Origin: Neptunicoccus sediminis
Lineage (GTDB): Bacteria > Pseudomonadota > Alphaproteobacteria > Rhodobacterales > Rhodobacteraceae
Assembly (NCBI RefSeq): GCF_001719615.1
Contig: NZ_MDVX01000001.1
Span: 372,001-436,000, forward strand
Direction: 5' to 3'
Length of the DNA: 64,000 nt
This document shows positions 23,829 through 55,768 of the stretch, one piece after another; positions within the stretch are counted from its first letter, which is position 1, and each line of letters begins with the position of its first letter. The notes under the pieces are model-generated. The model ran no database searches, was not told the origin of the DNA, and worked only from the letters and a program-made list of their open reading frames with translations. A program made the translations under genes and the position numbers.

Positions 23829-24253
23829 GTAATTATTTTCAAAACTTATTGATCCGACCATCTGGATTTACGCGCTATGCTGCGGGTAAACCACCGCTCC
23901 AAAAGTATAGGACCATGTCTCTTAAGGATTCCTTTCACCCGGCCGATTGCTTTGGAGATGCGTAATTTTCCAGTGCGTTTCCGGTGGGAATTGTGATGTT
24001 TCGGCCAAGGTTTATTGATGTTTAATTGCCGTTTATCCCAATAGGTTTAATGTGAATAATTCATCGAAAATTCGATGTAACTTGGCAGGTTTGGGGGGGA
24101 CCGATCCGATCCTTTCGACGGTTAACGGGCAAGACCCGCCCGACTTAGGCAAACCGGCCAAGCTATTCAGTGGTGCCCAATGTTTCGCCAGTTCTTTTCC
24201 GTGCCGCTGCATTTAAGCGGTGCACCCGCCGTTTACTGTGGTATTTCAATCAT
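23829..24253. promoter_or_regulatory. Divergent promoter region between the giant secreted protein and the antiporter
   Basis: 425 bases with no gene. It contains a clean palindrome at 24063-24076 (ATCGAA, AA, TTCGAT) and an AT-rich block with repeated TTTA(A) motifs at 24008-24055. It must hold promoters in both directions, but none can be assigned confidently. Confidence 0.4.
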
Positions 24254-32374: not shown

Positions 32375-33661
32375 TCAGGTCTGCGTCAGGCCCAAAGCCA
32401 TGTTACTGACCGCCGGTTCCTGATCCGACAGCTTTCCATTGGGCCGGTCTGCATTGGCCTTGGCCTGCTTTTTGTATTCCAGTCGTGCGATCTGGTCGCG
32501 GTGGACCTCATCCGGGCCGTCGGCAAGGCGCAACATACGCGCCGTCGCATAGGCTGCCGCCAGCCCGAAATCGTTGCTGGTGCCACCGCCGCCGAACAAC
32601 TGGATGGCCCAGTCGATCACCTGACAGGCCATATTTGGCACCGCAACCTTGATCATGGCGATCTCGGCTTTGGCCTCTTTATTGCCAACAGTGTCCATCA
32701 TATGGGCGGCCCGCAGGGTCAGCAGACGGGACTGTTCGATCAGGATACGGGACTGGGCGATGCGTTCACGGGTGACGGACTGTTCGGACAGAACTTTGCC
32801 AAATGTCGTCCGTTCACCGGCGCGTACCACCATTTTTTCCAGCGTGCGTTCGGCCAACCCGATCAGGCGCATACAGTGGTGGATGCGTCCCGGTCCAAGA
32901 CGGCCCTGTGCGATTTCAAACCCGCAGCCTTCCCCCAGCAGCATGTTAGAGGCAGGCACACGCACGTTGTCAAAGATCACTTCAGAGGCACGGTCCGGTA
33001 CGCCGTAAAATCCGAACACAGGGATCGAACGTTTCACGGTGACGCCGGGCGTGTCTTTCGGGACGAGGATCATGGATTGCTGACGATAGGTCTCGGCGCT
33101 CGGGTCGGATTTACCCATAAAGATGATGATCTTGCAGCGGGGATCGGTCGCGCCGGTGGTATACCATTTATGCCCGTTGATCACATATTCATCACCGTCC
33201 CGCACGATGGCGCTCTCGATATTGCGCGCATCCGAAGAGGCTACAGCGGGTTCCGTCATCGCAAAACTGGAGCGGATTTCACCCTTCAGCAGCGGTTCCA
33301 GCCACTGTTTCTTGTGTTCCTCGGTGCCATAGCGTTCCAGCACTTCCATGTTGCCCGTGTCAGGGGCAGAACAGTTGAACACCTCCGGTGCAAGGTGGCT
33401 GCGACCCATGATTTCACACAGGGCAGCATATTCCAGATTGTTCAGTCCGGCCCCTTTGTCCGATTCCGGCAGGAAAAGGTTCCACAATCCGGCCTCTTTC
33501 GCCTTGATTTTCAGCTCCTCCACAACGGGATGCACACCCCAGGGGCCAATATCCTCGGACTCCCGATAAAAGCGGGCTTCGTTCGGATAGATATGCTGGT
33601 CCATGAAATCTTTCAGACGATCTTCCAGCGCACGGGTTTTATCGGATTTTTCAGGGATCAT
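32375..33661 (-). CDS. Acyl-CoA dehydrogenase, ACAD10/ACAD11-like
   Basis: 428 residues, an FAD-dependent acyl-CoA dehydrogenase. The blocks [20 protein letters not shown] (about 250-270), [15 protein letters not shown] and [16 protein letters not shown] follow the dehydrogenase half of animal ACAD11 and its bacterial relatives. Those enzymes act on ordinary or phosphorylated 4-hydroxyacyl-CoAs. A matching ACAD11-N-terminal-like kinase is at 43.8-44.8 kb in the same regulon. It is divergent from the thiolase, and a regulatory palindrome lies between them. Confidence 0.92.
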
Positions 33662-33756
33662 TTCAGGCTCGTTCGTTAGGGGCGGGCTTGCTCCGGTGGC
33701 TGCATTTTGCGTGGTGCTAAGCCGGAGAGACCCATTGATAAACAGAAATTAGTGAC

Positions 33757-33776
33757 GTATTGTCTGACACTAATGG
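33757..33776. promoter_or_regulatory. Regulon operator copy 1 (acyl-CoA dehydrogenase / thiolase)
   Basis: Core TGTCTGACACTAA at 33761-33773. It is also the right half of a larger TTAGTG...CACTAA inverted repeat starting at 33749. The same core recurs twice at 43.5-43.7 kb. TGTCxGACA symmetry fits FCD-type GntR regulators such as the one at 35.1 kb. Confidence 0.6.
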
Positions 33777-33859
33777 CGTAGCATAGCGGAATTGCGATGG
33801 GAAGACGAAACATGCTCCCGCTCCGTGTGGGACGCAGGGTCAAAAAGGAGGAACGGATC

Positions 33860-35023
33860 ATGGCCGATGCATATATCGTAGAGTCGCTGCGCACCGCAGG
33901 GGGGCGACGCAAAGGGGCGCTGGCAGACTGGCACCCCGCTGATATGGGGGCGGAAATTCTGAATGCACTGGTAGAGCGCACGGGGATTGATCCGGCAGCG
34001 ATCGACGATGTGATTATGGGCTGTGTCACCAAAGGTGGCGAGCAGGCGTTCAACATCGGGCGCAACGCGGTGCTGGCCTCCAAGCTGCCCCAGACTGTGC
34101 CTTCTACCACAGTGGATCGCCAGTGCGGCAGTTCCCAGCAGGCGGTGCATTTTGGCGCGGCTATGGTGATGGCGGGCGTGCAGGACGTGGTGATTGCCTC
34201 TGGAGTGGAAAGCATGACACGGGTGCCCATGTTCGCGGATATGAGCAGCTTCGCCAAAGCGGGTATCGGGGCCGATCCGGTCAGCCCGCGCATTGCAGAG
34301 CGGTTTGGCGTGACAGGTTTCAGCCAGTTCACAGGGGCCGAGATGATTGCGCAGAAACACGGTTTCTCGCGCGGGGATCTGGACGCTTATGCGCTGGAAA
34401 GCCATAAACGGGCAGCGGCTGCCACAGAAGCGGGGGCGTTCCAGCGGGAAATCCTGCCACTTCACACGGCAGCGGGCGCACATACGCGCGACGAAGGCAT
34501 CCGTTATGACGCCACCGCGCAATCCATTGGCAGCGTTGATACACTGACCGAGGGCGGCAAGCTGAGCGCGGCAAATGCCAGCCAGATTTGCGACGGGGCG
34601 TCGGGGCTGATGATCGTGTCCGAACGGGCGCTCAAGACCCACGGGCTCACCCCGATTGCGCGGATTGTGGATATGACCGTGACGGCGGGTGATCCGGTGA
34701 TCATGCTGGAAGAACCGATCGAGGCCACCCGTCAGGCACTGGCAAAATCCGGTATGACGCTGGATCAGATCGACCTTTACGAGGTGAACGAAGCCTTTGC
34801 CCCCGTACCGCTGGCATGGATGAAAGAGCTGGACGCCGACCCCGCACGCACCAACGCGCAGGGCGGGGCGATTGCGCTTGGTCATCCGCTCGGGGCGAGC
34901 GGCACACGGTTGATGTCTACCCTTATTCACGGGCTGCGGGCCTCGGGCAAACGTTACGGGTTGCAGACCATGTGCGAAGGCGGCGGCACTGCGAATGTGA
35001 CCATCCTGGAGGCGCTGTCCTGA
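33860..35023 (+). CDS. Acetyl-CoA acyltransferase (thiolase)
   Basis: 387 residues, a standard degradative thiolase. Nucleophile C89 is in DRQCGSSQQA, the GHPLGASGTR histidine motif lies near 348 and CEGGGTAN with the second cysteine near 377. It cleaves 3-ketoacyl-CoA with CoA. AAAGGAGGAAC just before the ATG at 33860 fixes the start; the longer frame upstream runs through the operator. It is divergent from the acyl-CoA dehydrogenase and followed by a hairpin and the GntR gene. Confidence 0.94.
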   Translation: MADAYIVESLRTAGGRRKGALADWHPADMGAEILNALVERTGIDPAAIDDVIMGCVTKGGEQAFNIGRNAVLASKLPQTVPSTTVDRQCGSSQQAVHFGAAMVMAGVQDVVIASGVESMTRVPMFADMSSFAKAGIGADPVSPRIAERFGVTGFSQFTGAEMIAQKHGFSRGDLDAYALESHKRAAAATEAGAFQREILPLHTAAGAHTRDEGIRYDATAQSIGSVDTLTEGGKLSAANASQICDGASGLMIVSERALKTHGLTPIARIVDMTVTAGDPVIMLEEPIEATRQALAKSGMTLDQIDLYEVNEAFAPVPLAWMKELDADPARTNAQGGAIALGHPLGASGTRLMSTLIHGLRASGKRYGLQTMCEGGGTANVTILEALS

Positions 35024-35049
35024 CGGGGCAGTTTTCCAACACCCGCAAG

Positions 35050-35079
35050 CCGCCTTTCGGTTCACAAAGGGGGCGGTTT
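35050..35079 (+). terminator. Terminator-like hairpin after the thiolase gene
   Basis: CCGCC (35050-35054) pairs with GGCGG (35072-35076), with a TTT/AAA extension across a bulge, then TTTG. Moderate strength; gntR probably has its own promoter downstream. Confidence 0.5.
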
Positions 35080-35144
35080 GCTGTTAAATTGGCGCAGCAG
35101 CGCACGGGTCTGTCCGCACGCCTGCAACCGATGGAGTAGAAGAC

Positions 35145-35888
35145 ATGAGTTTGCGCAGCCAGCATCTGAAGGTGAATTATGCCTATCGCCAGTTTGCCGA
35201 TGAAATCGAAGCGCAGATCATGCAGGGCACGCTAAAGCCCGGCGAACGTCTGCCCGGCGAAGTGGAGCTGGCGCAACTGTTCGGCGTCACCCGTTCTACC
35301 GTGCGCGAAGGGCTGCGCCAGTTGGAAAGCGAAGGTCTGGTGCATCGCCCCACGCCCCGCCGACTGGAAGTTGCGCTGCCCCAAAGCGACAAACTCGCCA
35401 GCCGATCCAGCCGCGCAATGGTACTGATGAATGTCACCTTTCGGGAGTTGTGGCAGGTGGCACTGGAAACCGAACCGCTGGCCGCAGAACTGGCCGCGCG
35501 ACAGGGCCGGCCAGAGGCTCTGGCCGCGTTGAAAGACATTCACGCCCGTCTGGTGGCCGCTAAGGACGACGTGGCCGAAACCACGCGCCTTGATATGGAA
35601 TTTCACACCCAAGTGGCCGAGATGAGCGAGAACCGCGTGCTCTGCCTTGTGCGCGAACCGCTGACATTGCTGCTGTATCAGGGGTTTATCCAGATCACCC
35701 CTTCCGTCCCCCAAGCCATCGAACGCCAGATCGTCGCGCACGGTCAGATCGTGGAAGCGATTGAGGCTAAAGACCCCGAACGCGCCCGAGACTGGGCCCA
35801 CCGCCACATCCAAGACTTCTGGCGCGGCATCCAAATTGCAGGGCTACAGGATGAGCCGTCGATCTCGAAAGAGAACAGGATGAAATGA
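35145..35888 (+). CDS. GntR-family regulator, FCD (FadR-like) subfamily
   Basis: 247 residues. The winged helix-turn-helix (about 15-80) contains RLPGEVELAQLFGVTRSTVRE; the all-helical FCD effector domain (about 95-235) carries the metal-site residues typical of the subfamily (DMEFH near 150, HGQI near 200). It lies next to the thiolase, and three copies of a TGTCxGACA-centred palindrome occur in promoters of the surrounding acyl-CoA genes. It is the natural candidate for the regulon's repressor, relieved by the substrate or an acyl-CoA. The pairing is inference. Confidence 0.92.
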   Translation: MSLRSQHLKVNYAYRQFADEIEAQIMQGTLKPGERLPGEVELAQLFGVTRSTVREGLRQLESEGLVHRPTPRRLEVALPQSDKLASRSSRAMVLMNVTFRELWQVALETEPLAAELAARQGRPEALAALKDIHARLVAAKDDVAETTRLDMEFHTQVAEMSENRVLCLVREPLTLLLYQGFIQITPSVPQAIERQIVAHGQIVEAIEAKDPERARDWAHRHIQDFWRGIQIAGLQDEPSISKENRMK

Positions 35889-36037
35889 GGGGGGTGGATA
35901 TTAGGACTTGATAATAAAATCACGTGCCAGAGAATTCGAACCCTTGCCAAACCAAAGATTAAGTATGACTTCTCCATCATCACATAGCTAAATATGGTTG
36001 TTACACGGAAACAACTTTTCGAAAGATTTCAATTGGC

Positions 36038-36673
36038 ATGAATGACGATGTAATTCAGGATTTTCTTCGCACGAAATCTATCTCCTGCATCTCGGACGTA
36101 GATCGAGATCTGATTGTGGACTACGCTATTAGCTCAAGGTCTTACGATGTTAGCGGGTTCAATAACCTAATTGACCAAAGCCCTGATTGGGCATCAGTGC
36201 TAGTGTCGCATATCCATTTGGATCATTTGTTGACACGCTTCCTGATGGAGTTTTGTGTGCGCCCAAAGTCGGTTAGCCCAGATGTAAGACGCATGAGTGT
36301 TTTAGATAAGTGTTTTTTCCTCCACGGAGTTGGAGTTTTGTCGGACGGTTCGCTTTCGGCGATCAAACACCTGAACAGGGTGCGTAACCGTTTTGCCCAT
36401 CAGCTTGAATTTGATGTTCCCGAAAAGTTTGTTTCTGAATACCGCGCAGCTCAGATATCAGCCTACGGAGATAGAGTCTATCAACGTGAAGAGTATCGTC
36501 TTGCTGAAGGCGGCCAGCTACCTTTTAAGACAATGCTCAAACTTTCGGTTTTATTTGTTGAAGAAGAACGTTTAGCACATCTTATCATGGGGTTGAATGC
36601 AGCCCGAGCTCGCGCTGACCTAGAAGAAGCTTGCCGATTTGCAAATCTGCAATTGGCGAAATCTAACACATGA
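36038..36673 (+). CDS. HEPN-like protein, probably horizontally acquired
   Basis: 211 residues, mostly helical, unlike any named enzyme I know. A clear RX4H motif, R116-N117-R118-F-A-H121 in HLNRVRNRFAHQ, is the catalytic signature of HEPN-domain ribonucleases and of MltR/DUF4145-like proteins. Base composition is visibly AT-richer and codon use is unlike the neighbours. Gene-poor AT-rich flanks (35889-36037 and 36674-36902) hold nothing recognisable. No antitoxin (MNT-type) partner is visible beside it. A defence or toxin role is possible; a regulatory protein of unknown function is equally so. Confidence 0.7.
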   Translation: MNDDVIQDFLRTKSISCISDVDRDLIVDYAISSRSYDVSGFNNLIDQSPDWASVLVSHIHLDHLLTRFLMEFCVRPKSVSPDVRRMSVLDKCFFLHGVGVLSDGSLSAIKHLNRVRNRFAHQLEFDVPEKFVSEYRAAQISAYGDRVYQREEYRLAEGGQLPFKTMLKLSVLFVEEERLAHLIMGLNAARARADLEEACRFANLQLAKSNT

Positions 36674-36902
36674 TAAATATGTGATTTCCACGACGTTTAG
36701 TATCTCAGTACTACTTTCTTAAAGTCTCGAGTGTTCTAGTATCATTCGCCTGTCAATTTCCACCACGACCTTTCCAACAATATTGAGAGGAATTGCATCG
36801 AAATCACAGTTGGATCGTTTCTTATTCCGTAATTTTCACGTTCGGTTGCCCCTTTAAGCAACCGAACGTATAATTTTTTGCCTCCGGTCCGCTCGACCCC
36901 TA

Positions 36903-38492
36903 TCACCCCCCGTCAAACACCCCCTGATACTCCACCCGCAGGTCTTTTTTCAGGATCTTGCCGCTCGCGTTTTTGGGGAGTTGCTTTACGATCTCGATGT
37001 GTTTTGGCGATTTGAACCCTGCCAGATTTTCGCGGCAGTAGTCCATCAGTTGCTCCCGTGTCACCGATGATCCGTCTTTGGCCACGACAACCGCTGTCAC
37101 CGCTTCGATCCATGTGGGGTGGGGGATGCCGAACACGGCGACTTCGGCCACATCGGGGTGGTGGAAGATGGCTTCCTCGACCTCCCGGCTGGCGACGTTT
37201 TCGCCGCCGGTTTTGATCATGTCTTTCTTGCGGTCCACCACGTACAGGTAGCCGTCCCCGTCAAACCGCCCCAGATCGCCGCTGTGGAACCAGCCGTTGG
37301 CAAAGGCTTCGGCGGTTTTGTCGGTGTCTTTGTAATATTCAAGGATCAGGTGGGGGCTGCGGTGGACGATTTCGCCGACCTCGCCCACGGCTACGGGCTG
37401 GTCACTGTCATCGACCACACGGGTTTCCACGTTCAGCGCCGGACGCCCTGCCGAGCCTAGCTTGGTCAACTGGTCTTCGGGTTGCAGGATGGTGGCGATG
37501 GGAGCCATTTCCGTCTGTCCGTAAAAGTTCCACAGCTTCATGTTTGGCAAACGCTGCATCAGTTCCTCGATAATCGCGGTGGGCATGATAGAGGCGCCGT
37601 AATACCCCGCTTCAAGGCTGCTCAGGTCCCGTTTGTCAAAATCGGGATGCCGCAGCAGAGCAATCCAGACGGTGGGCGGGCAGAACAGTTTGGTCACGCC
37701 TTCCGCTTCAATCGCCGCCAGCATTTCGGCGGGGTCGGCCTTGTCATGCAGGATGCTGGTCACGCCAAGATAGAGGTCCGGCGACAGGAAGCAGTCCAGT
37801 TGTGCGCAGTGAAACAGGGGCAGGCAATGGAGCGAGACCGCGTCGCCGGTCATTTTGCCGTCCACGATGCAGCTGATATACTGGGCATAAAGTGCGCTGG
37901 AGGTCAGCAGCGCACCCTTGGGCCGTGATTCCGTACCGCTGGTGTACATCATCTGGATCGGGTCATCCGGGTCCACATCCACCCAGACTTCACCGTCATC
38001 GGCGTGATCCAGCAGGGTCGAAACCGGCGCCCAGTGGTCCGGTGCGGCAACATCGGCATGGGGGATCACAAACCGCTGCATCTCCCCCTTGCCAAGCTGC
38101 GCCAGCGCCGCATCTGCCGTGGCACAAAGCGCGTCTTCGGCAATGATGGCACAGGCGCCGGAATGGTCGAGGATATAGGCCACATCTTCAGCGTTCAGCA
38201 TGAAATTCACAGGCGTAGTCACCGCCCCGAGCCGCGCCAGCGCAAAACGCAGCACCACGAAGGCGCGATTGTTATGGCTGAGAAGGGCAACACGGTCGCC
38301 CTTCTTGATGCCATTGGATTTCAGCCCGTTGGCCGCACGGTTCACAGCGCGGTTCAGTTCGGCAAAGGTTTCCGAGGAACCGCGGAATTTTAGTGCGGTT
38401 TTATCCGGTGTGCGCGCGGCTGAGCGGTGCAAAAGATCACCAAGCTGCTGGCTGCGGGCCCGCCGGACCAGCGTTGTGTTTTGGGATGTCAT
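36903..38492 (-). CDS. AMP-forming acyl-CoA ligase (fatty-acid/aromatic-acid type)
   Basis: 529 residues of the ANL superfamily. P-loop MYTSGTESRPKGA near 185, YGQTE near 323, hinge DRKKDMIKTGGE near 420 and the C-terminal catalytic lysine in NASGKILKK near 512. It adenylates a carboxylic acid and transfers it to CoA. The start is decided by AAAGGAG: it lies 2 bases before the ATG at 38498 but 8 before the ATG at 38492, so the latter is used. It lies 55 bases downstream of dctM, so the imported acid is probably its substrate. Confidence 0.92.
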   Translation of the reverse strand: MTSQNTTLVRRARSQQLGDLLHRSAARTPDKTALKFRGSSETFAELNRAVNRAANGLKSNGIKKGDRVALLSHNNRAFVVLRFALARLGAVTTPVNFMLNAEDVAYILDHSGACAIIAEDALCATADAALAQLGKGEMQRFVIPHADVAAPDHWAPVSTLLDHADDGEVWVDVDPDDPIQMMYTSGTESRPKGALLTSSALYAQYISCIVDGKMTGDAVSLHCLPLFHCAQLDCFLSPDLYLGVTSILHDKADPAEMLAAIEAEGVTKLFCPPTVWIALLRHPDFDKRDLSSLEAGYYGASIMPTAIIEELMQRLPNMKLWNFYGQTEMAPIATILQPEDQLTKLGSAGRPALNVETRVVDDSDQPVAVGEVGEIVHRSPHLILEYYKDTDKTAEAFANGWFHSGDLGRFDGDGYLYVVDRKKDMIKTGGENVASREVEEAIFHHPDVAEVAVFGIPHPTWIEAVTAVVVAKDGSSVTREQLMDYCRENLAGFKSPKHIEIVKQLPKNASGKILKKDLRVEYQGVFDGG

Positions 38493-38547
38493 TTCCATAA
38501 CTCCTTTGGCATTTCCGGACAGGGCCGGACGATAGGTCGTTTCAGGA

Positions 38548-39855
38548 TCAGTTCAGCAATTCCGGCAGGAACAGAACCAGTGCGGGGAAGGCCGAGAGCA
38601 GGGCCACGATGGCAAGGTCCATCACGATGAACCACATCACGCCGCGGAAGATGGCAGAGGTTTTCACCAGATCGCCCACCACGCTTTTGATGACAAAAAC
38701 ATTCATCCCGATAGGCGGTGTGATCATCCCGATTTCCAGAAGTTTGGTCAGCACGATGCCAAACCAAAGCAGGCTCCACCCCGAATTATCCACCACCGGC
38801 AGGATGATCGGCAGGGTCAGCAACATGGCCCCGATCGGTTCCAGAAACATGCCCATCAGCAGGTAAACCAGCACGATGCCAAGCATCAAAAGCGCGGGGT
38901 TGGAGGCCACGGACATGATGCCCGAGGACAGGTAATCCCCTGCACCCGACAGGGCGAGAAACCGTGTCAGCAGGCTCGCACCAATAGCGATCACCAGCAG
39001 CGAGGCGGTGGTCATGGTGGTTTCCCGCGCTGCCTTGAGAAAGCGTTCCAGTGTCAGTTCACCGCTAACTAGTGCGACGATACAGGCCAGAAACGCACCC
39101 ACAGCACCGGCTTCGGTGGGGGTAAAGATACCGCCGAACAAACCACCAAAGATGCCGATCATAATCAGGAAAATCGGCCATGTGTCCTTTAGTGCGATGA
39201 TGCGTTCGGACAGGCTGACCTTTTCGTCCCGCTCCGGTGCCAGATCGGGGTTCAGTTTCACCCGTACCAGCACAACAATGATGTAGCCTACAGTGGTCAG
39301 GATACCGGCGCTGATGCCGCCCAGAAACAGTTTGGCGATAGAGACCTGTGCAATCACGCCGTAAAGGATCAGGATGATCGACGGCGGGATCAAGGCACCG
39401 ATGGTCCCCGCAACCGCTACAGTGCCTGTGGCCAGTTCGGGATGGTATCTGTGTTTCATCATCTCGGGGATGGCGATGCGCCCCATTGCAGCAGAGCAGG
39501 CGATGGACGATCCGGACACAGCGGCAAAACCGGCAGACCCGAAAATCGCAGCAATCGCCAGCCCGCCGGGAATGGCTGAAAGCCAGATCCGCGCCGCGTT
39601 GAACATGCCTTTGGTCAGTTGCGTGTGATAGCTGATGAACCCCAGAAACAGGAACATCGGAATAGAGCTGAGCACCCAGTTCGACGTGAACTGATAGGGA
39701 ATAACCCCAAGCGCACCCCAGGCGACACGGGACCCCATCAGGGACCACAATCCGATGAAGGAGACACCGATCAGGGAGACTCCGATCGGCACCCGCAGGG
39801 CGATCAGGGCCATAAGGGAACCAAGACCGGTCAGGCCAATTGCGACATCAGTCAT
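38548..39855 (-). CDS. dctM: TRAP transporter large permease DctM
   Basis: 435 residues with about 12 membrane helices. Family features include FAAVSGSSIACSAAMGRI near 110, GAVGAFLACI near 245 and ITPPIGMNVFVIK near 385. It forms the Na+-driven translocation channel with DctQ and the periplasmic DctP. It overlaps the dctQ end by 8 bases. I use the ATG at 39855 rather than 39876 because the hydrophobic segment begins there. The cluster is followed by an acyl-CoA ligase, suggesting a mono-carboxylate substrate. Confidence 0.93.
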   Translation of the reverse strand: MTDVAIGLTGLGSLMALIALRVPIGVSLIGVSFIGLWSLMGSRVAWGALGVIPYQFTSNWVLSSIPMFLFLGFISYHTQLTKGMFNAARIWLSAIPGGLAIAAIFGSAGFAAVSGSSIACSAAMGRIAIPEMMKHRYHPELATGTVAVAGTIGALIPPSIILILYGVIAQVSIAKLFLGGISAGILTTVGYIIVVLVRVKLNPDLAPERDEKVSLSERIIALKDTWPIFLIMIGIFGGLFGGIFTPTEAGAVGAFLACIVALVSGELTLERFLKAARETTMTTASLLVIAIGASLLTRFLALSGAGDYLSSGIMSVASNPALLMLGIVLVYLLMGMFLEPIGAMLLTLPIILPVVDNSGWSLLWFGIVLTKLLEIGMITPPIGMNVFVIKSVVGDLVKTSAIFRGVMWFIVMDLAIVALLSAFPALVLFLPELLN

Positions 39856-40384
39856 GAACGATCTCATCTGCTTCAAGTGTTTCGTGAAGTCCGTTGCGGG
39901 TTTTGAACACGCGCACCAGAACTTTGTATCCGGCGATCAGGCAGATCAGCGCACCGCCTATCGGGATGGCCCAATAGCTCGGCCAGATTGCGATCAGACT
40001 GGAGCCTTGCTCCATCGAGGCGCCGGAGTTGGTCTTTTTCATCGCCTCGGTGAACCCGCTGATGGCCAGCAGCCCGAAGACGAAAATGGTGAACAGACCG
40101 GAAAACACCGACAGCCAGCCCTGTATCGTGCGGGGCATCATATCTGTCAGGAACTCAACCGATATATGGGCGTTCTTTTCCTCTGCCACACCAAGGGCAA
40201 TGAATACGACGATAATCATGTAGTAATGGCCAACGATCACAATCGTTCCGGTCAGCGGCGCATTGAACACATACCGGCCCACCACATCCGCTGTCACGTG
40301 CAGCATCATTAAAACGATACATATCGTCCCGAGCAGCGATCCGATCTTTGTCAATCCAGACAGGGCTTTCCCCACATGAACCAT
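39848..40384 (-). CDS. dctQ: TRAP transporter small permease DctQ
   Basis: 178 residues with four membrane helices. DVVGRYVFNAPLTG in the first third is the conserved DctQ block, and the helical arrangement is normal. Overlaps dctM by 8 bases and follows dctP after a 61-base gap. It stabilises the DctM channel. Confidence 0.92.
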   Translation of the reverse strand: MVHVGKALSGLTKIGSLLGTICIVLMMLHVTADVVGRYVFNAPLTGTIVIVGHYYMIIVVFIALGVAEEKNAHISVEFLTDMMPRTIQGWLSVFSGLFTIFVFGLLAISGFTEAMKKTNSGASMEQGSSLIAIWPSYWAIPIGGALICLIAGYKVLVRVFKTRNGLHETLEADEIVHD

Positions 40385-40445
40385 CTAATTCCTCCCCTGA
40401 AATCCGTGTCGGGCGCCAGCAGTTAACGCTGGCACCCTTAAGTGA

Positions 40446-41582
40446 TTATTTACCGTAGCTGCTTAGGTCGATCTTGGAATAGATCTCGTTCCAGTAAATC
40501 TCGGTCAGCGCATCGGCAGAGTCCACATCCGCTGTCAGCTCTGTCCAGCGGCCCAGCAGTTCGCGCAGTTTCTCCGCTGCCGCGTCCCCGTTTTCCAGAC
40601 TGAAACGGTCTTTGTATACGGTTGCAACGTTTTTCACGTCATTAGCGATGAAGTCGCGGTTCATTGCAACAAGCGCGTCAGAGGCCGGACCGTATTCGAT
40701 CCCCAGTTCCGGCGATTTCGCCTTACCGGCGCGGGCTTCTTCAAGGTAAACCCAAGTCATCTCAGAGGCGAGCTTGGCGCTGGCTTTCATCACGGCGGAT
40801 TTGCCGCTGTCGGACAGACCGTTCCAACGGTCCTTGTTCATCATGGTCGGAACCGTGAACTGGCCACCGGGCAAACCTGTGTAGAGGTATTTGACCACTT
40901 CGATGAAGCTGAAGTTTACGAAATCCGCAGTATTGGATGCCGTGCAATCCAGAACACCCTGATTGAGCGCCTCAAAGGTTTCGTTCACCGACATAGAGAC
41001 CGGAACAGCACCCACGGTTTCCGCCCAGCGGGACCAGTATGCCCCGGCGGTGCGGATGCGTTTGCCTTTCAGATCTTCGGGAGAGTTCAGCGGAACCACA
41101 CATTGCAGCGCATAGGATGTGGTCATGGCTGCACCGAGATACACCTGATTTTGCTTGGCAGTTTCGCTCAGGCAGTCGGGACAGTTCAGCATCACGTATT
41201 CGGTCAACGCACCGGCAAAGGCTGCTGAGCTGGTCTCGCCGGAAAATTCTTCCAGTTCTACCAGTTGGGAAAATTCCGAAATCATGTTCAGGTTCGGAAA
41301 TTCGGCAGGGAAATAGGGCGTCAGGATCGCGGCTGTATCCGCCAGACCGTCGCGCAAACCGGCGTTGCCTTCGGCAAAGGACAGCAGCGACAGCGGAAAG
41401 ACCCGCATGGTCAGTTCGCCACCGGAGTTTTCTTCGATGGCTTCTGCATAGGCTTCCAGAACCGCTGTGGGTTTGGAGTTCGGCGGCCAACCGCCCGCAA
41501 AGCTAAGCTGGTCCGCCTGCACAGCCGGTGCCAGCGCCAGCAGGGATGCCCCTGCGAGTACCGATCTAATGATACGTTTCAT
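40446..41582 (-). CDS. dctP: TRAP transporter solute-binding protein DctP
   Basis: 378 residues. A 23-residue signal peptide ends in VQA. The mature protein has the DctP fold, with an LKGKRIRTAG carboxylate-arginine loop near 168 in which the conserved Arg would hold the ligand carboxylate. It is longer than most DctPs. It belongs to the type found beside acyl-CoA ligases in roseobacters; the ligand is unknown. 156 bases separate it from the upstream hydratase, containing a CCCCG/CGGGG hairpin (41645-41661), probably a processing site that sets relative expression. Confidence 0.92.
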   Translation of the reverse strand: MKRIIRSVLAGASLLALAPAVQADQLSFAGGWPPNSKPTAVLEAYAEAIEENSGGELTMRVFPLSLLSFAEGNAGLRDGLADTAAILTPYFPAEFPNLNMISEFSQLVELEEFSGETSSAAFAGALTEYVMLNCPDCLSETAKQNQVYLGAAMTTSYALQCVVPLNSPEDLKGKRIRTAGAYWSRWAETVGAVPVSMSVNETFEALNQGVLDCTASNTADFVNFSFIEVVKYLYTGLPGGQFTVPTMMNKDRWNGLSDSGKSAVMKASAKLASEMTWVYLEEARAGKAKSPELGIEYGPASDALVAMNRDFIANDVKNVATVYKDRFSLENGDAAAEKLRELLGRWTELTADVDSADALTEIYWNEIYSKIDLSSYGK

Positions 41583-41738
41583 AATGTGTTCCTCCTGTTT
41601 GTGTTCCGGAAGCCGGAACGGTCATATGAACGAAAATTCTCCTGCCCCGCTCCTCCCGGGGTGGATAGTCTTGTGATCCTTTGGAGGGGATCGCCGCACC
41701 GGATGTCGCTCGCGTCCGGGGGTGTTTTCAGCGCAGGG

Positions 41739-42515
41739 TTATGAATGAAACCGTGGTGCGCGTTTTTCCTTGAAAGCGGCCAGCCCTTCGGCAAAGTCGC
41801 GGGACTCTCCTGCTTCTTTTTGCAATTTGCGTTCTGTGGAGAGGGCGCTGGCGAAATCGCTGTCTGCCGCGCTCCAGGCTGCCTGGCGGATCAGACTGTA
41901 GCTGTGGGACGGGCCCTGTGCCAGCCGCGCGGCGATTTCAAAGGCAGTCGCTTCGACCGCGTCATCGTCGGCAAGCCGTGTGATCAGCCCCCAGTCCAGC
42001 GCTTGTTCTGCCGGAATTTTCTCTGCCAGCAGCATCATTTCCATTGCGCGAACCCGTCCGACCGCCTTGGTCAGCAGCCACGTGGCCCCGCCATCAGGGA
42101 TCAGGCCGATGCGGGCGAAAGCCTCAAGGAAATAGGCGCTTTTGCCTGCTACGATGATGTCACAAGCCAGCGCAATGGAGGCCCCAACCCCCGCAGCCGC
42201 CCCGCGCACGGCACTGATCACAGGCACCTCCAGATCGCGGATGGTTAGCATCAAGGGGTTGTATTCCTGTTCCAGCGTCGCCCCCACGTCAAACCCCGTG
42301 GTGTCTTCAGGCATGGCAGCATTCAGGTTGGCCCCTGCGGAAAAAGCCCGCTCGCTGCCTGCAAGGATGATGGCCCGCGCGGTTTTTGACTCGCTTACTA
42401 GCAGATCGCGCAAGGCTCCGGCCATATCCGCTGTCATGGCGTTCATGGCTTTGGGATCGTTCAGACGCAGGGTCGTTACCCCGTCCTTGCGCTCTACCAA
42501 AATCTTGTCTGTCAT
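41739..42515 (-). CDS. Enoyl-CoA hydratase/isomerase family protein
   Basis: 258 residues, a crotonase-fold protein. The oxyanion-hole segments are RAFSAGANLNA near 60 and AVRGAAAGVGASIAL near 103. GGGAGGAC-like purine stretch ahead of the ATG at 42515 decides the start over 42533. It lies 27 bases after the stop of a second crotonase. In beta-oxidation it would hydrate or isomerise the enoyl-CoA intermediate. Catalytic glutamates of the classic hydratase are not both evident, so an isomerase or other crotonase reaction is possible. Confidence 0.88.
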   Translation of the reverse strand: MTDKILVERKDGVTTLRLNDPKAMNAMTADMAGALRDLLVSESKTARAIILAGSERAFSAGANLNAAMPEDTTGFDVGATLEQEYNPLMLTIRDLEVPVISAVRGAAAGVGASIALACDIIVAGKSAYFLEAFARIGLIPDGGATWLLTKAVGRVRAMEMMLLAEKIPAEQALDWGLITRLADDDAVEATAFEIAARLAQGPSHSYSLIRQAAWSAADSDFASALSTERKLQKEAGESRDFAEGLAAFKEKRAPRFHS

Positions 42516-42542
42516 TGCGTGTCCTCCCAACACTTTAACGGA

Positions 42543-43418
42543 TCAGGCCCAGGGGGGCTCGTTCCACCAGGGGAAAAATCCGGGCATGTCGGTGCTGACA
42601 CGATCGGGAAATTCCGCTGGTCGTTTTTCAAAGAAACTGGCCACACCTTCGGCAGAATCGCCCTGCACACTGCGGGCGGCCACGGCGCGGCTGTCGATCT
42701 GGTGCGCCATCATCGGATGGGGCGCGCCGGACATCTGCCACAGCATCTGGCGGGTCATCGCCACAGACACTGGTGCTGCGTTATCCGCGATCTCCTGCGC
42801 GATGTCATAGGCCGCTGGCAACAGATCATCGGGCGCATGGATGGAGCGGATCAAACCTGCCGCCAACGCCTCTTCCGCGCCAAAAACGCGGCCCGAGTAG
42901 CACCACTCCAGCGCGGTGGACAGGCCCACAGCGCGGGACAGGAACCAGCTTGACGCCGCTTCCGGTACAATGCCGCGGCGGGCAAAAACAAAGCCGAATT
43001 TCGCTTTGTCCGAGGCGATGCGAATATCCATTGGCAGCTGCATGGTGCTGCCGATCCCGACAGAGGGACCGTTTACCGCAGCAATCACGGGCTTGAGGCA
43101 TCGAAACAGGCGCAAGGCCAGCAACCCACCGGAATCGCGGTTCTGTGGATTGCTCCAAGTGGCGGGGTCGGTGGATTTCGGGTCCAGATCCGCCGAAGAA
43201 AACGCATCCCCGTCATCAAGATCCGCACCGGCACAAAAGCCGCGACCCGCCCCTGTCACCACAATGGCGCGCACATCGTCATCCGCATCCGCCAGATCGA
43301 GCGCGGCAATCATCTCCTGCATCATCGTTTCGTTGAACGCGTTCAGCTTTTCGGGCCGGTTCAACGTCAGGGTCATGATGTTGTCAGCTACAGCGGTCTG
43401 AATGGTGGTAAAGCTCAT
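42543..43418 (-). CDS. Enoyl-CoA hydratase/isomerase family protein (second paralogue)
   Basis: 291 residues, also crotonase-fold: GRGFCAGADLDDGDAF near 66 and AVNGPSVGIGSTMQLPMD near 115. It has an insertion after the first oxyanion segment (STDPATWSNPQNRDSGG), which makes it longer than usual. The ATG at 43418 has GGAGA 7 bases upstream. First gene of the minus-strand unit continuing to the TRAP and ligase genes; two operator copies lie ahead of it. Its precise double-bond chemistry cannot be told from its neighbour's by sequence alone. Confidence 0.88.
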   Translation of the reverse strand: MSFTTIQTAVADNIMTLTLNRPEKLNAFNETMMQEMIAALDLADADDDVRAIVVTGAGRGFCAGADLDDGDAFSSADLDPKSTDPATWSNPQNRDSGGLLALRLFRCLKPVIAAVNGPSVGIGSTMQLPMDIRIASDKAKFGFVFARRGIVPEAASSWFLSRAVGLSTALEWCYSGRVFGAEEALAAGLIRSIHAPDDLLPAAYDIAQEIADNAAPVSVAMTRQMLWQMSGAPHPMMAHQIDSRAVAARSVQGDSAEGVASFFEKRPAEFPDRVSTDMPGFFPWWNEPPWA

Positions 43419-43521
43419 GGACGGTCTCCGGTGGCGCACTGGCGCAAGCCCGTCCCGACGGGGCGGTCGGGCCGTAGAATGGTGTCAAAGAAGGCCGCTT
43501 GGCGCATAGATGGAATATCCG

Positions 43522-43540
43522 ATTAGTGTCTGACAGTAAT
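43522..43540. promoter_or_regulatory. Regulon operator copy 2 (enoyl-CoA hydratase side)
   Basis: Near-perfect palindrome ATTAGTGTC T GACAGTAAT, one mismatch between the arms. About 104 bases upstream of the hydratase ATG at 43418. The same core as at 33761 and 43734. Confidence 0.65.
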
Positions 43541-43730
43541 ACACTGAGGAGAATCGGCGGGTCTGTCAATATGATTGTCGCCTGACGCTGCGAAGCGCAA
43601 ACTTTGACGCGCACTGTAAGATGCTAGTGTATGGGTGCTTAACTTCCCAGACCGATCTCTATGTTGCGCCGTAAGGTTATTTCGCGCCATCGTGAAAATC
43701 GTTGACGCTGGCAGCTCGTCTATTTATGTC

Positions 43731-43749
43731 CTAATGTCAGACACTAATT
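43731..43749. promoter_or_regulatory. Regulon operator copy 3 (kinase side)
   Basis: On the minus strand AATTAGTGTC T GACATTAG, sharing the core with copies 1 and 2. It ends 35 bases before the kinase ATG at 43785. With copy 2 it brackets a 366-base divergent promoter region that holds no gene. Confidence 0.65.
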
Positions 43750-43784
43750 GGCGACATTACAGCACCAGCGAGACGAACAGACCT

Positions 43785-44816
43785 ATGGCCATTCAACCCG
43801 ATTTTGACCCCGCCACACTCGAAAGCCTTCTGGGAGAGCCTGTCGCGCTTGCACCTGTGACAAGCGGGCAGTCCAACCCGACGTGGTTTGTCAGCACCGC
43901 AACACGGGAATTGGTTCTGCGAAAGAAACCTGCGGGCGTTACAGCCTCCAGCGCTCATGCGGTGGACCGGGAACACCGCGTGATGTCAGCGCTTTCCAAC
44001 AGCGCGGTGCCGGTGCCTGATATGGTGATGTTCGAGCCCGATCCGGCGGTAATCGGCACGCCGTTCTATCTGATGGAGCGGCTTTACGGCCATGTATCCG
44101 AAACCAGTGACCTGCCCGCACTGGCCGCAGAGGAACGGGGCGCAGTGTTCAACGATGCTGCGCGGGTTCTGGCGGCAATCCACACGGTAGACTGGCAGGC
44201 GGCTGATCTTTCGGATTACGGCAAGACGCAGGATTACTACCCCCGACAGGTCCGCCGCTGGGCGCGACAGTGGGAGACTGCAAAAGCGGCCGGAATGGAG
44301 GCGCAGTTCAGCAACCGGATCGACAGGCTCGCCGCTTGGTTTGCAGAAAACATCCCCGCCGAAAGCCCGACAACGCTGGTCCACGGGGATTACCGGATCG
44401 GTAATGTGATGTATGCCACCGGCCCTGCACGGATCGAGGCTGTGCTCGATTGGGAGCTATCAACACTGGGCGATCCCTTGTCGGACCTTGCCCACTGGAT
44501 GATGTTCTATGACCTGACGCCCGAACAGATGGGGGGCTTGGCCGGACTGGATCTTGCCGCACTCGGGATTCCTGACGGGGCGGCGTTTATGGATCATTAC
44601 CGTGCCAGCGGCGGCTGTGATGCGCCCCTGACGCGGTTCCACCGCGCTTTTGCCATGTACCGCATGTCGGTCATTCTTGCCGGAATCACGGCGCGGGCAA
44701 AGGCAGGGCAGGCAGCCCATGACGACGCGGTGGCCGTGGGTGCGATGGCGCCGCAGTTCGCGCTGATTGCCGAACGGCTGCTGTCGTCGGACAAGGCGCA
44801 TCAGGCAGTCGGGTAA
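43785..44816 (+). CDS. Phosphotransferase of the ACAD10/ACAD11 N-terminal / LvaA type (acyl-CoA-linked kinase)
   Basis: 343 residues, APH-fold kinase. SGQSNPTWF near 27-35, VLRKKPAG (44-51), catalytic VHGDYRIGN (199-207) and LDWELSTLGDPLSDLAH (221-237) match the kinase half of ACAD11 nearly block by block. In animals that half phosphorylates 4-hydroxyacyl-CoAs so that the dehydrogenase half can remove the phosphate; LvaA of the Pseudomonas levulinate pathway is related. The partner dehydrogenase here is a separate gene at 32.4-33.7 kb. Start 43785 chosen because upstream frames contain the operator. Followed after 97 bases by an acyl-CoA ligase. Confidence 0.88.
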   Translation: MAIQPDFDPATLESLLGEPVALAPVTSGQSNPTWFVSTATRELVLRKKPAGVTASSAHAVDREHRVMSALSNSAVPVPDMVMFEPDPAVIGTPFYLMERLYGHVSETSDLPALAAEERGAVFNDAARVLAAIHTVDWQAADLSDYGKTQDYYPRQVRRWARQWETAKAAGMEAQFSNRIDRLAAWFAENIPAESPTTLVHGDYRIGNVMYATGPARIEAVLDWELSTLGDPLSDLAHWMMFYDLTPEQMGGLAGLDLAALGIPDGAAFMDHYRASGGCDAPLTRFHRAFAMYRMSVILAGITARAKAGQAAHDDAVAVGAMAPQFALIAERLLSSDKAHQAVG

Positions 44817-44913
44817 CTGTGCAGTAGCGTCAGTGTTGAAACCGGCACCGCGCAGTTCTAGCCTTCGCTGAACCGCGCCTGTACCCTGTAAGACCCTCCA
44901 AGAAAGTTCAGAT

Positions 44914-46476
44914 ATGACCGTGATGCCGACCACCCGCACCGAAGTTCACTTCCAAGACCGCGCACTGACCTGTTTTGAGAACCGCGCCGCGCTGGTGATG
45001 GATCAGATCGACGCTGTCTTTGCCCGCTTTGCAGAGCGCACCGCCATTGTGGACGAACGGGAACGGCTGACCTATGGCGCGTTATCGGCCCGAGTTGACG
45101 GATGCGCGGCGCAATTGCAGCGGCTCGGCCTGTCGGGGGGGGATCGGGTCGGGCTGATCCTGTCCAACCGGCTGGAGTTCGTTGTCTCGCTGCTTGCGAT
45201 CTGGCGGCTCGGGGCGGTTCCGGTGCCGATGAACGTGCGCGAGGCAGCCCCCGAAACCGCCTTTATCCTTAATGATTGCAGCGCGGCGGGCCTGATCTTT
45301 GATCCCGCCCATGACGGCGCAATTCCGGCGCAAGACGATGTGCCTGATTTGAAATGGCGATTGGACATCGACAGTATTGAACGCAGCGCTCCGGATAGTT
45401 TTGATCCGGCAGCGCCTGCGATGGATGAGGATGATCTGGCTTGTATTCTGTATACTTCGGGCACCACCGGAAAACCCAAAGGCGCGATGCTGACCCACCT
45501 CGGGATCATCCATTCGATGCTGCATTTCGCCCATCACCTGCAACTGGACGAACAGGACGCGGCCCTACTGGTTGTGCCTGCAACCCATGTGACAGGGTTG
45601 ATCGCGCTGGTCATGACCAGCCTTGGGGTCGGGTCCAAACTGGTGATGCAAGAGGCTTTCAATACCCGTGCGGTGCTGAACGTGACCCAAGCCGAAAAGA
45701 TCAGCTATTCCGTGATGGTTCCGGCCATGTACAACCTGATCCTTCTGCGCGAGGATCTGACGCAATATGACCTCAGCTCTTTGCGCATCGGTGCCTATGG
45801 CGGTGCCCCGATGCCGGTGCCAACGATTGAAAAGCTCGCGCAGCTGGTGCCGGATCTGACCTTGGTAAACGCGTACGGCGCGACCGAGACGACTTCCCCT
45901 TCGACGATCATGCCGCTGGATGCGGACCGTTCGGCGTTTGATACGATCGGCAAGCCTGTGGCCTGCGGTGAAATCCTGATTATGGATGAGGACAAGCGCG
46001 AATGTCCTGTTGGCACTGTGGGGGAAATCTGGATTCGCGGGCCGATGGTTGTGGCGGGATACTGGAACCGTCCCGATGCCACCGCGTCCGAGTTCGTAGG
46101 CGGGTTCTGGCGTTCCGGCGATATGGGCGCGATGGACGAAAACGGCTATGTGCGGATTTTCGACCGGATCAAGGACGTGGTGAATCGCGGCGGCTACAAG
46201 GTGTTCAGCTCCGAAGTTGAAAGCGTTTTGATGACCCATCCCGATGTGGCAGAAGCTGCGATCATCGCAAAACCCTGCCCCGTATTGGGCGAACGGGTCC
46301 ACGCCGTAATCTGTCCCAAGGCCGCACAGGTGAACGAAGCCGCGCTGAGCGCCCTTTGCGCCGAAAACCTGAGCGATTACAAAGTCCCCGAGAGCTATTC
46401 CATCTCTCACGAACCGTTGCCGCGAAATGCGAATGGCAAGGTGTTGAAACGAACCCTGAAAGAGACCTTTCTGTAA
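44914..46476 (+). CDS. AMP-forming acyl-CoA ligase (second)
   Basis: 520 residues, ANL superfamily. LYTSGTTGKPKGAML near 178, YGATETTSPS near 322, DRIKDVVNRGGYKVFS near 415 and NGKVLKR at the C-terminus with the catalytic lysine. It differs clearly from the ligase at 36.9 kb, so the cluster can activate two acids or one acid at two stages. It probably shares the kinase's transcript. Confidence 0.9.
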   Translation: MTVMPTTRTEVHFQDRALTCFENRAALVMDQIDAVFARFAERTAIVDERERLTYGALSARVDGCAAQLQRLGLSGGDRVGLILSNRLEFVVSLLAIWRLGAVPVPMNVREAAPETAFILNDCSAAGLIFDPAHDGAIPAQDDVPDLKWRLDIDSIERSAPDSFDPAAPAMDEDDLACILYTSGTTGKPKGAMLTHLGIIHSMLHFAHHLQLDEQDAALLVVPATHVTGLIALVMTSLGVGSKLVMQEAFNTRAVLNVTQAEKISYSVMVPAMYNLILLREDLTQYDLSSLRIGAYGGAPMPVPTIEKLAQLVPDLTLVNAYGATETTSPSTIMPLDADRSAFDTIGKPVACGEILIMDEDKRECPVGTVGEIWIRGPMVVAGYWNRPDATASEFVGGFWRSGDMGAMDENGYVRIFDRIKDVVNRGGYKVFSSEVESVLMTHPDVAEAAIIAKPCPVLGERVHAVICPKAAQVNEAALSALCAENLSDYKVPESYSISHEPLPRNANGKVLKRTLKETFL

Positions 46477-46634
46477 CGTCTTGGCTTTTACCTTTTTTGT
46501 CGGGTAACGTAATCTTTATTAAAAAGACCTGTCTTCCACCCCGCCTGTGGTGTCGCATTCTGCCATAAGCTGCGAGACTGAACCGGCTGGGTTTGCCAGA
46601 CAGAACCTACACCGAACCGACAAGGACAAAACCG

Positions 46635-47774
46635 ATGAACGTCTTGCGCCAGATTATCCTCTGTGCAGCAGCGCTTGCTGCGGCGCTTTATATCTGGGCG
46701 AATTATGTGCCGTCAGCCGCGCCGTTTCTGGCAAAGCTCGGTCTGAAGACAGAACAACCGCAGGACGCGAATGCGGGGCGTGGCAGGTTCCAGCGTGGCC
46801 CGACACAGGTGGTGACAGCGCCGGTTCGGGAGCAAACACTGGCCGACAGGATCAGCGCTATCGGGGATGGGCGGGCGCTCCATTCCATCGCGGTGCGGGC
46901 CAAGGCTGTGGGGTTGATCACCGAACTGCCCTTGTCGGCGGGCGGCTATGTTGAAAAAGGCCAGCTGATTGCCCGTCTTGAGGATGAAGCCGAAACCATC
47001 GCAGTGGAACAGGCCCGTGTCCGGCTGGAGGATGCACAGGCCGCAGCAGAGCGTATTGCGCGGCTGGAAACCACAGGGGCCGTAACCGAGGTGCGCCTGC
47101 GGGAAACGCAACTGTCCCTGCGCAATGCCGAACTGGCCTTGCGGCAGGCAGAGTATAACCTTGAGCAGCGCAAGATCGAAGCGCCGGTTTCGGGCTATAC
47201 AGGGATTATCGACATTGCGGTGGGGGATCGGGTCAACGCGCAGGATGTTCTGGTAACAATCACCGACCGCTCGCAAATCCTGATTGATTTTCGCGTGCCC
47301 GAACGGGTGATCGGCAAGATCGCGACCGGACAGGTGTTCACGGCTGTGCCGCTGGGTCTGCGCAATGTAGAAATGACCGGAGAGATCAGTGCGGTTGATA
47401 CCATCGTGGACCGCACCAGTCGCACCTTGCGGGTGCAGGGGCGGCTGGACAATACAGCCGACCGGTTGCGCGCGGGTATGGCCTTTTCCGTCAGTCTGAA
47501 TTTTCCGGGTGAAACCCTGCTGTCCATCGCGCCGCTGGCTTTGCAATGGTCCAGCGACGGGGCGTTTGTCTGGGTGCTGCGGGAGGGCAAGGTACACCGC
47601 GCGGCACTGGCAATCCGGCAGCGCAACAGTGACAGCGTATTGGTAGAGAGCGACGCTTTGCGTGCGGGCGATGAGATCGTCACCGAAGGGGTGCAGACCC
47701 TGCGCGAAGGCGCAGAGGTTGTGTTGTCCGAAAAAGCCGCCGCGGTGCAGGACGGGATCGGGGACCGCACATGA
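46635..47774 (+). CDS. RND efflux periplasmic adaptor (membrane fusion protein)
   Basis: 379 residues. One N-terminal membrane anchor (about 6-24), a lipoyl/biotinyl half-motif, a short coiled-coil hairpin (about 110-175, Ala/Glu/Arg-rich), the second lipoyl half, a beta-barrel and a membrane-proximal domain. AAGGA lies 9 bases ahead of the ATG at 46635, favouring it over 46593. It links an RND pump to an outer-membrane channel; no TolC-type gene is adjacent. The stop overlaps the pump start as ATGA. Confidence 0.92.
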   Translation: MNVLRQIILCAAALAAALYIWANYVPSAAPFLAKLGLKTEQPQDANAGRGRFQRGPTQVVTAPVREQTLADRISAIGDGRALHSIAVRAKAVGLITELPLSAGGYVEKGQLIARLEDEAETIAVEQARVRLEDAQAAAERIARLETTGAVTEVRLRETQLSLRNAELALRQAEYNLEQRKIEAPVSGYTGIIDIAVGDRVNAQDVLVTITDRSQILIDFRVPERVIGKIATGQVFTAVPLGLRNVEMTGEISAVDTIVDRTSRTLRVQGRLDNTADRLRAGMAFSVSLNFPGETLLSIAPLALQWSSDGAFVWVLREGKVHRAALAIRQRNSDSVLVESDALRAGDEIVTEGVQTLREGAEVVLSEKAAAVQDGIGDRT

Positions 47775-50700: not shown

Positions 50701-50887
50701 ATCCGGAGCAGGGGCCGAAGCCCGCGAGGCGCTGGGCTGGGTGATCGTGGGCGGGCTGGGACTGGCCACGGTTTCGACCCTGTTCCTGACCCCTGTGGCC
50801 TATCTGCTGCTGGCGCGGTTCTCGACACCTAAAGCGGCACAAGAGGCCCGACTGAAAGCCGAACTGCAAGAGGCGCAGGCAATCTGA
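47771..50887 (+). CDS. RND multidrug efflux pump, HAE-1 (AcrB-like) family
   Basis: 1038 residues, normal AcrB length with 12 membrane helices and two large periplasmic loops. Proton-relay aspartates lie in GMVVDDAIVVLEN near 406. The C-terminal half repeats the architecture (VMLIGIMAKNGILIVEFANQ near 917). It exports hydrophobic compounds with proton antiport. Coupled to the adaptor; no regulator beside it. Confidence 0.95.
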   Translation: MNPKTEDPAPAGLASGTALFVRRPILAFVLNALIVLAGIAGFFGAEIRELPNVDRPVVTVTTQFSGAAPETVDQEVTGRIEGAVGRVAGVRSISSNSRFGRSRVTLEFDDKVNIDIAATDVRDAVARIVNQLPDTAEQPQIVKADANAQAVMRIAVTSSGRSPQDLTRIVQDRVEDRLISVDGVADLQVYGDRDPVFRVDIDQMELASRGLTLADVRNSLADVAYDSPSGDLAGDSQSINVRTTASVATAAAFEALEIRSNVILGDVARVTLGPAPGETVLRANGQSGLGIGIIRQATSNTLDISKNVRAVVAELDATLPDDVSIFVTSDDAVFIEGSITEVVKTLLLAVTIVVIVIFIFLRDFRATLIPALTLPVALVGALAAIYLVGFSINILTLLALVLATGMVVDDAIVVLENIVRLRSQGMGPRAAAVLGTQQVFFAVVTTTATLAAVFIPLSFLPGQVGGLFREFGFTLAIAVMLSSVVALTFCPVLASRLLTRKPQAKDQRGPMIWLGGVLSRSYAAALRGVLAVPFAVVLVAVLFTVTAAFMAGGIRQELTPREDRAVALLSLTASQGVSLSYTQDKMQQIEDAVEPLRQSGEITNVFSITGFGADNRGFMVFTLAKWDERKRSQQDIVAEINRGLRGIVGVRAFAIQPNSLGIRGAGRGLAFAITGDNYGQLADVAETLVDRMNEVPGMGKVQLQYETTQPQLFVQIDRTRASDLGINITGLGEALQAVLNGRKVGSVFIDDTSYDVQMLSTTNPVNDPGDLENIFVQSGDGQMVPMSSFVTLEERAVAPELDREGQKRSVEITAGLTPELSLGDALATVEQLADEVLAEENFIVPLAEAATLDQTNSGLFVTFGFAVLVVFLVLSAQFESFISAVVVMSTVPIGLACAVFALVLTGLSLNVYSQIGLVMLIGIMAKNGILIVEFANQLRDRGQDVYSAILEASTVRLRPVMMTMTSTVIGGVPLILSSGAGAEAREALGWVIVGGLGLATVSTLFLTPVAYLLLARFSTPKAAQEARLKAELQEAQAI

Positions 50888-55736: not shown

Positions 55737-55768
55737 GTCACTGGTCCTTGTGTTTTGGCAGGTCATGG

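Follow-up and report, generated by a model that had tools for sequence, protein, structure and literature searches.

A candidate GntR-controlled regulon for the import and degradation of 4-hydroxy acids in Neptunicoccus sediminis

Gene Cluster Organization

The region analysed here is a 64-kb window of the 3.86 Mb genome of Neptunicoccus sediminis, and all coordinates are positions in this window. The window carries a gene cluster with an APH-family kinase, an acyl-coenzyme A (acyl-CoA) dehydrogenase (ACAD), two acyl-CoA ligases, a thiolase, two crotonases, a tripartite ATP-independent periplasmic (TRAP) importer and a GntR regulator (Table 1). The kinase and the ACAD are encoded separately, with about 10 kb between the two genes. 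These families and coordinates agree with those given in the initial annotation. From the sequence, we consider it likely that the cluster is a GntR-controlled regulon for a 4-hydroxy (gamma-hydroxy) carboxylic acid, which it would import and then degrade by way of phosphorylation and loss of the phosphate.

Table 1. Genes and operator copies of the cluster in the 64-kb window
Feature	Position	Strand	Evidence and remarks
ACAD10/11-branch ACAD, proposed 4-phosphoacyl-CoA phosphate eliminator	32375-33661	-	PDB search and five residues matched to mouse ACAD11
Operator copy 1, between ACAD and thiolase	33757-33773		Matrix score 26.4, rank 1 in window
Acetyl-CoA C-acyltransferase (thiolase)	33797-35023	+	Start probably 33860; NF005077 636 bits, above cut-off
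GntR regulator with FCD domain	35145-35888	+	PF00392, PF07729
AMP (adenosine monophosphate)-forming acyl-CoA ligase A	36903-38498	-	NF006182 774 bits
TRAP importer genes dctM, dctQ, dctP	38548-41582	-	PF06808, PF04290, PF03480 above their cut-offs
Crotonase 1, PaaG-like, isomerase-type active site	41739-42533	-	Nearest solved relative E. coli PaaG 4fzw_C, 4e-57
Crotonase 2, PRK08260 type, isomerase-type active site	42543-43439	-	Start probably 43418; NF006109 446 bits
Operator copy 2, ahead of crotonase-TRAP-ligase A operon	43523-43539		Matrix score 22.7, rank 3 in window
Operator copy 3, ahead of kinase	43731-43747		Matrix score 24.5, rank 2 in window
APH-family kinase, ACAD11 type, proposed 4-hydroxyacyl-CoA kinase	43785-44816	+	PF01636 161 bits; 3dxp and ACAD11 matches
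AMP-forming acyl-CoA ligase B	44914-46476	+	Family match

Kinase and Dehydrogenase

The PDB search showed that the window ACAD matched 4hr3 (E 4e-141) and three ACAD11 sequences (E 5e-137 to 1.5e-134), followed by ordinary acyl-CoA dehydrogenases at 2e-39. This gap of about 100 orders of magnitude in E-value places the enzyme in the ACAD11 branch. PMC12440821 describes mouse ACAD11 as holding the 4-phosphate by R626, H634 and R637, with D753 as the catalytic residue and R631 common to ACADs. In the alignment to ACAD11 chains, R254, R259, H262, R265 and D381 of the window ACAD correspond to R626, R631, H634, R637 and D753, respectively, position 753 being fixed by an ACAD11 chain with N in place of D. 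A wider alignment of 39 ACADs included two ordinary ACADs of the same genome, which were without the residue set. The equivalents of R626, R631, H634 and R637 were kept in the remaining 37, and that of D753 in 36 of these 37; the truncated ACAD of locus L166 has no letters at that column. We propose that the window ACAD would eliminate phosphate from a 4-phosphoacyl-CoA.

The best solved relatives of the window kinase were 3dxp (E 5e-68) and the kinase domain of ACAD11 (4e-49). Its residues D202, N207 and R154 aligned with ACAD11 D220, N225 and R176, and the catalytic Asp, the Asn and the R176 equivalent were identical in all 109 aligned kinases. In ACAD11, D220 and N225 are catalytic, and two Arg residues contact CoA. 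An Arg beside the alpha-C Glu is also present; the published 'R86' was matched to it by description, and our own count puts the Arg at 84. The window kinase is proposed to phosphorylate 4-hydroxyacyl-CoA. The initial annotation had stated that the two halves of animal ACAD11 are encoded here as separate genes, and the matches of both proteins to ACAD11 bear this out. According to PMC11342911, stand-alone bacterial orthologues are able to replace either half of ACAD10.

Another APH-family kinase match was found in the window at 95-790 (-), beside genes for a class-III aminotransferase, an aldehyde dehydrogenase and a TctA permease at 853-5095 (-). This neighbourhood resembles hydroxylysine kinase/phospholyase pairs, another phosphorylate-then-eliminate route.

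Conservation in Relatives

A contig collection was scanned with an alignment of three kinases. The scan returned 108 relatives, and 80 loci were kept. Twelve of these form a kinase clade at 57–85% identity, including L137 with a frame-broken kinase, and the other 68 are at no more than 46%. Among the named loci, the nearest kinase was that of Amylibacter cionae (85% identical). Of 120 genomes sampled from the family, two had a close kinase, one of them being this genome.

The GntR gene was found in 10 of the 12 clade loci (copies 57–97% identical), ligase A and DctPQM together with the kinase in nine (ligase A copies 73–95% identical), and both crotonases, at about 70% identity or more, in eight. 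A kinase-linked ACAD11-branch ACAD was present in seven loci, and ligase B (at least 45% identity; copies 46–89%) lay behind or near the kinase in six. At the locus of Albibacillus kandeliae (L062), the order GntR-kinase-ACAD-ech2-ech1-dctP-dctQ-dctM-ligA is uninterrupted and runs in one direction. The Salipiger plasmid carries ligase A, GntR, the kinase and the linked ACAD, but no close TRAP genes (DctM 35%). Outside the clade, a DctM-like gene was found in 25 of the 68 loci, a few of them as weak matches, and 23 of the 25 also carry an ACAD11-branch ACAD. The link of kinase/ACAD11 chemistry to TRAP import is therefore recurrent.

Shared Operator

One 17-bp palindrome occurs three times in intergenic DNA of the cluster: in the ACAD/thiolase gap, before the crotonase-TRAP-ligase A operon and before the kinase. 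The exact core TTAGTGTCWGACA has three copies in the whole genome, all at these three promoters. With one mismatch allowed, the core gave 11 genome matches, four of them in the cluster, and the backward-read control gave three. A first palindrome guess, TTGTATACAA, was rejected, as its 13 matches against 9.1 expected were no better than chance.

An operator matrix was trained on 13 sites from eight other genomes, with the window sequence left out. It ranked the three operators first to third in the window, and the next site scored 11.2. Shuffling the window 200 times gave no site at or above 22.67 (maximum 21.4), and the third-best site stayed at or below 14.9 throughout. The best site in the 68 kinase loci outside the clade (1.13 Mb) scored 19.7. 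When each locus was left out in turn, the expected site ranked first in seven of eight loci and second in L068. On the Salipiger abyssi plasmid, which was outside the training set, the best site (26.3) lies directly before the GntR gene. Strong sites were seen in loci that carry the GntR gene. The best score was only 12.5 in L137, and L070, where a GntR orthologue was not found, was without an operator site (best score 7.2).

The operator motif GTCNGAC fits the GT-N3-AC palindrome given as the consensus of FadR-subfamily GntR operators in PMC4494728 and PMC2230225. We infer that the GntR/FCD protein of the cluster reads the 17-bp operator. The initial annotation called the genes one regulon but could not show it, and the operator shared by three promoters now lends this claim sequence support. 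Operator-like sites were also seen directly before kinases outside the clade, at 9872 in L122 (15.5) and 9875 in L128 (18.9). Regulation by FCD-GntR proteins may therefore predate the module.

Crotonases and the Beta-Oxidation Tail

A review (PMC4498308) describes PaaF as having both catalytic glutamates of hydratases and PaaG as having the isomerase arrangement with one catalytic glutamate. In an alignment with E. coli PaaF and PaaG, both window crotonases were without the two PaaF glutamates, with S/F and T/F at those columns, and both carry an acid at the column of the PaaG Asp. PMC4498308 speaks of a glutamate in PaaG, and our alignment shows Asp there. The crotonase copies of six relatives in the alignment likewise were without both glutamates and had the acid. 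Judged by these active sites, both crotonases look like double-bond isomerases rather than hydratases. The two crotonases listed in the initial annotation are thus present, and they are better read as isomerase-type enzymes.

MaoC-type, short-chain reductase (SDR) and close thiolase genes lie near the kinase in the Salipiger and Lutimaribacter loci, which fits a beta-oxidation tail. The window thiolase is 78% identical to the thiolase near the Salipiger kinase.

Proposed Pathway and Pairing of the Two Enzymes

In the proposed pathway, DctPQM would import the free acid, and ligase A, ligase B or both would convert it to a 4-hydroxyacyl-CoA. The APH kinase would then phosphorylate the 4-hydroxyl, and the ACAD11-type dehydrogenase, using flavin adenine dinucleotide (FAD) as an internal redox shuttle, would expel the phosphate to give an enoyl-CoA. 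From their active-site residues, the two isomerase-type crotonases may shift double bonds to the 2-enoyl position. Hydration and oxidation could be carried out by FadB-type enzymes, genes for which are present elsewhere in the genome, and the regulon thiolase would cleave the product. The FCD-GntR protein is predicted to bind the 17-bp operator at the three promoters and is probably released by an acid or acyl-CoA. Apart from the steps assigned to the crotonases and to the FadB-type enzymes, the scheme follows characterised homologues. The core of the earlier prediction, a regulon distinct from lva that joins a 4-hydroxyacyl-CoA kinase, an ACAD that eliminates phosphate and a TRAP importer, is supported by the residues, the operator, the synteny and the lack of an LvaB-family gene.

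Several observations weigh against this pathway. Family scans of the cluster genes found no hydratase and no 3-hydroxyacyl-CoA dehydrogenase, so hydration and 3-hydroxyacyl oxidation would come from elsewhere in the genome. The family 3HCDH_N had 11 genome matches, five of them below E 1e-39; two fall in open reading frames that are 662 and 737 aa long. DctP had only distant relatives among solved structures (best 2e-17), and no ligand could be assigned from them. In a separate earlier run of the operator search, one of 40 shuffles reached 24.5. The remaining points concern the pairing of the two enzymes. A second kinase of the same kind (42% identical) and two further ACAD11-branch dehydrogenases that could serve the kinase are encoded elsewhere in the genome, so the pairing of the window kinase with the window ACAD is not the sole one possible. 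A window-type ACAD also lies near a different kinase in genomes G128 and G009, the G009 kinase being split over two frames. Finally, the window ACAD was rejected as an orthologue of the kinase-linked ACAD of the relatives: the two are 48–50% identical and fall into separate clades, each with 100/100 support.

The distribution of the two ACAD types bears on this last point. A window-type ACAD (at least 70% identity) was found in all five clade genomes without a linked ACAD and in one of the seven with a linked ACAD. In the family background, it was found in 3 of 120 genomes, including this genome. Loss of the linked ACAD corresponds to three changes on the kinase tree, and 31 of 500 label shuffles were as low. 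As caveats, the genomes of the window, L060 and L061 are closely related and amount to a single event, L067 is located close to the end of its contig, and the kinase of L137 is broken. We read this pattern as the probable recruitment of a second ACAD11-type enzyme to the kinase system. It suggests that the ACAD half was swapped between lineages while the kinase, the importer and the regulator stayed.

The kinase and the window ACAD might instead not be partners, the kinase pairing with the C64 ACAD and the window ACAD with another kinase. The C64 ACAD, another ACAD11-branch enzyme, has the same residues as the window ACAD, and the arrangements in G128 and G009 point in this direction too. We regard such a pairing as unlikely, in view of the shared operator and of the presence of the window-type ACAD in the genomes where the linked ACAD is lost. 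The operator at the promoter of the window ACAD is a more direct tie between this enzyme and the kinase than their spacing on the DNA.

Comparison with Known Systems

The reaction of animal ACAD10/11 was explained only in 2024–2025, and most of what is known of the bacterial versions comes from levulinate. The cluster shares with animal ACAD10/ACAD11 the same two protein families and the diagnostic residues of kinase and ACAD. It differs in having two genes 10 kb apart, placed in a bacterial regulon with ligases, a thiolase, crotonases, an importer and a regulator.

Compared with the lva operon of Pseudomonas putida, the window cluster has a GntR/FCD regulator, a TRAP importer and two isomerase-type crotonases. 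LvaR is a different type of regulator from GntR/FCD. The LvaB small subunit, which we take to be the DUF6285 family, had no match in the genome; of 13 genomes searched, two have one, and this genome is not among them. The DUF6285 genes of these two relatives adjoin kinases only 26–31% identical to the window kinase, and the window kinase therefore appears to belong to a branch that works without LvaB. A short-chain reductase (LvaD/SDR) had no family match among the scanned cluster genes. The initial annotation had held that the system is not a copy of lva, since an LvaB-like subunit and the reductase were not seen, and this view stands.

A levulinate/4-hydroxyvalerate pathway equivalent to lva, with the keto acid reduced by an unlinked reductase, would still share its central steps with the cluster. 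PMC6692424 and PMC11342911 assign the kinase, ACAD and CoA ligase roles, which the window cluster would share, to LvaA, LvaC and LvaE, and according to PMC6692424 the lva cluster of P. citronellolis is likewise without lvaB. This equivalence seems improbable to us, as no SDR was found in the cluster and no DUF6285 gene in the genome, and a saturated C5 acid would leave the two isomerase-type crotonases and the TRAP importer unexplained.

A second design, TetR-SDR-ACAD-ligase-kinase-TRAP, was found in roseobacters, for example on a Sulfitobacter dubius plasmid (L042, 9078-15949). As in the window, a kinase, an ACAD11-branch ACAD, a ligase and TRAP genes are together. In contrast to the window, this design has TetR and an SDR and no crotonase pair, and its kinase and ACAD are 44% and 39% identical to those of the window. 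Many roseobacters carry this second design, which may be their lva-like version. No kinase/ACAD11/TRAP cluster was found in the literature searched, which consisted of open-licence PMC papers.

Importer and Candidate Substrate

The DctP protein (40446-41582) carries a C-P-x-C pair at residues 134 and 137 that was invariant in 10 aligned DctP proteins. To our knowledge, such a pair is unusual for a TRAP binding protein. An AlphaFold model of DctP, built from a 10-sequence alignment, had a mean predicted local distance difference test (pLDDT) score of 45 and was not used.

The regulon could serve a hydroxy acid with a ring or an aromatic side chain, its PaaG-like crotonases acting on ring-derived enoyl-CoAs. 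PaaG, a 1,2-epoxyphenylacetyl-CoA isomerase, is the nearest solved structure to crotonase 1, and both crotonases have its pattern of active-site residues. The structure 4p56, second-best among the DctP relatives, is reported to have been solved with mandelate. However, the DctP matches are very distant, crotonase 1 is a relative of PaaG and nothing closer, the cluster holds no phenylacetate genes, and no ring-cleaving or epoxidising gene was found among the scanned cluster genes. A substrate of this kind is quite unlikely. In another reading, the kinase would phosphorylate antibiotics or small metabolites and stand near fatty-acid genes by chance. In its favour are NCBIfam matches to aminoglycoside and other APH kinase families, though these are weak and below cut-off. 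This reading is hardly credible, as among solved structures the kinase comes closest to 3dxp and the kinase domain of ACAD11, and in 63 of the 80 kinase loci the fetched stretch contains an ACAD11-branch ACAD.

The sequence points to the class of substrates named in the initial annotation, 4-hydroxy acids. Among the compounds named there, we place levulinate last, since a search of the cluster genes gave no 4-keto reductase. Together with the isomerase-type crotonases, this lack of a reductase in the cluster makes us favour, as a guess, unsaturated or longer 4-hydroxy acids over levulinate. We speculate, with considerable doubt, that the regulon may be specialised for unsaturated 4-hydroxy acids, such as oxidised algal lipid fragments or oxylipins, in which the crotonases would reposition double bonds beside the site of phosphate loss.

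Neighbouring Genes

The genes for RND efflux that follow ligase B (46593-50887) were excluded from the cluster, as only L060 and L061 among the 12 clade loci carry them. They belong to another system, as do the C-P lyase genes for phosphonate use at 53414-57678 (-), which encode PhnH, PhnI, PhnJ and two ABC proteins. On the other side of the cluster, 18570-23861 (-) encodes a protein of 1763 residues that has DUF7507, DUF11 and GEVED repeats and is probably secreted or exposed on the cell surface.

Biological Significance

The animal route of adding and then removing a phosphate would be packaged here with its own transporter and genetic switch. Because the chemistry is tied to an importer and a defined operator, natural marine 4-hydroxy acids may be traceable through the ligand of DctP or the effector of the regulator. 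Should the regulon indeed be specialised for unsaturated acids, it would allow marine bacteria to scavenge products of lipid peroxidation and would parallel what ACAD10/11 do in animals.

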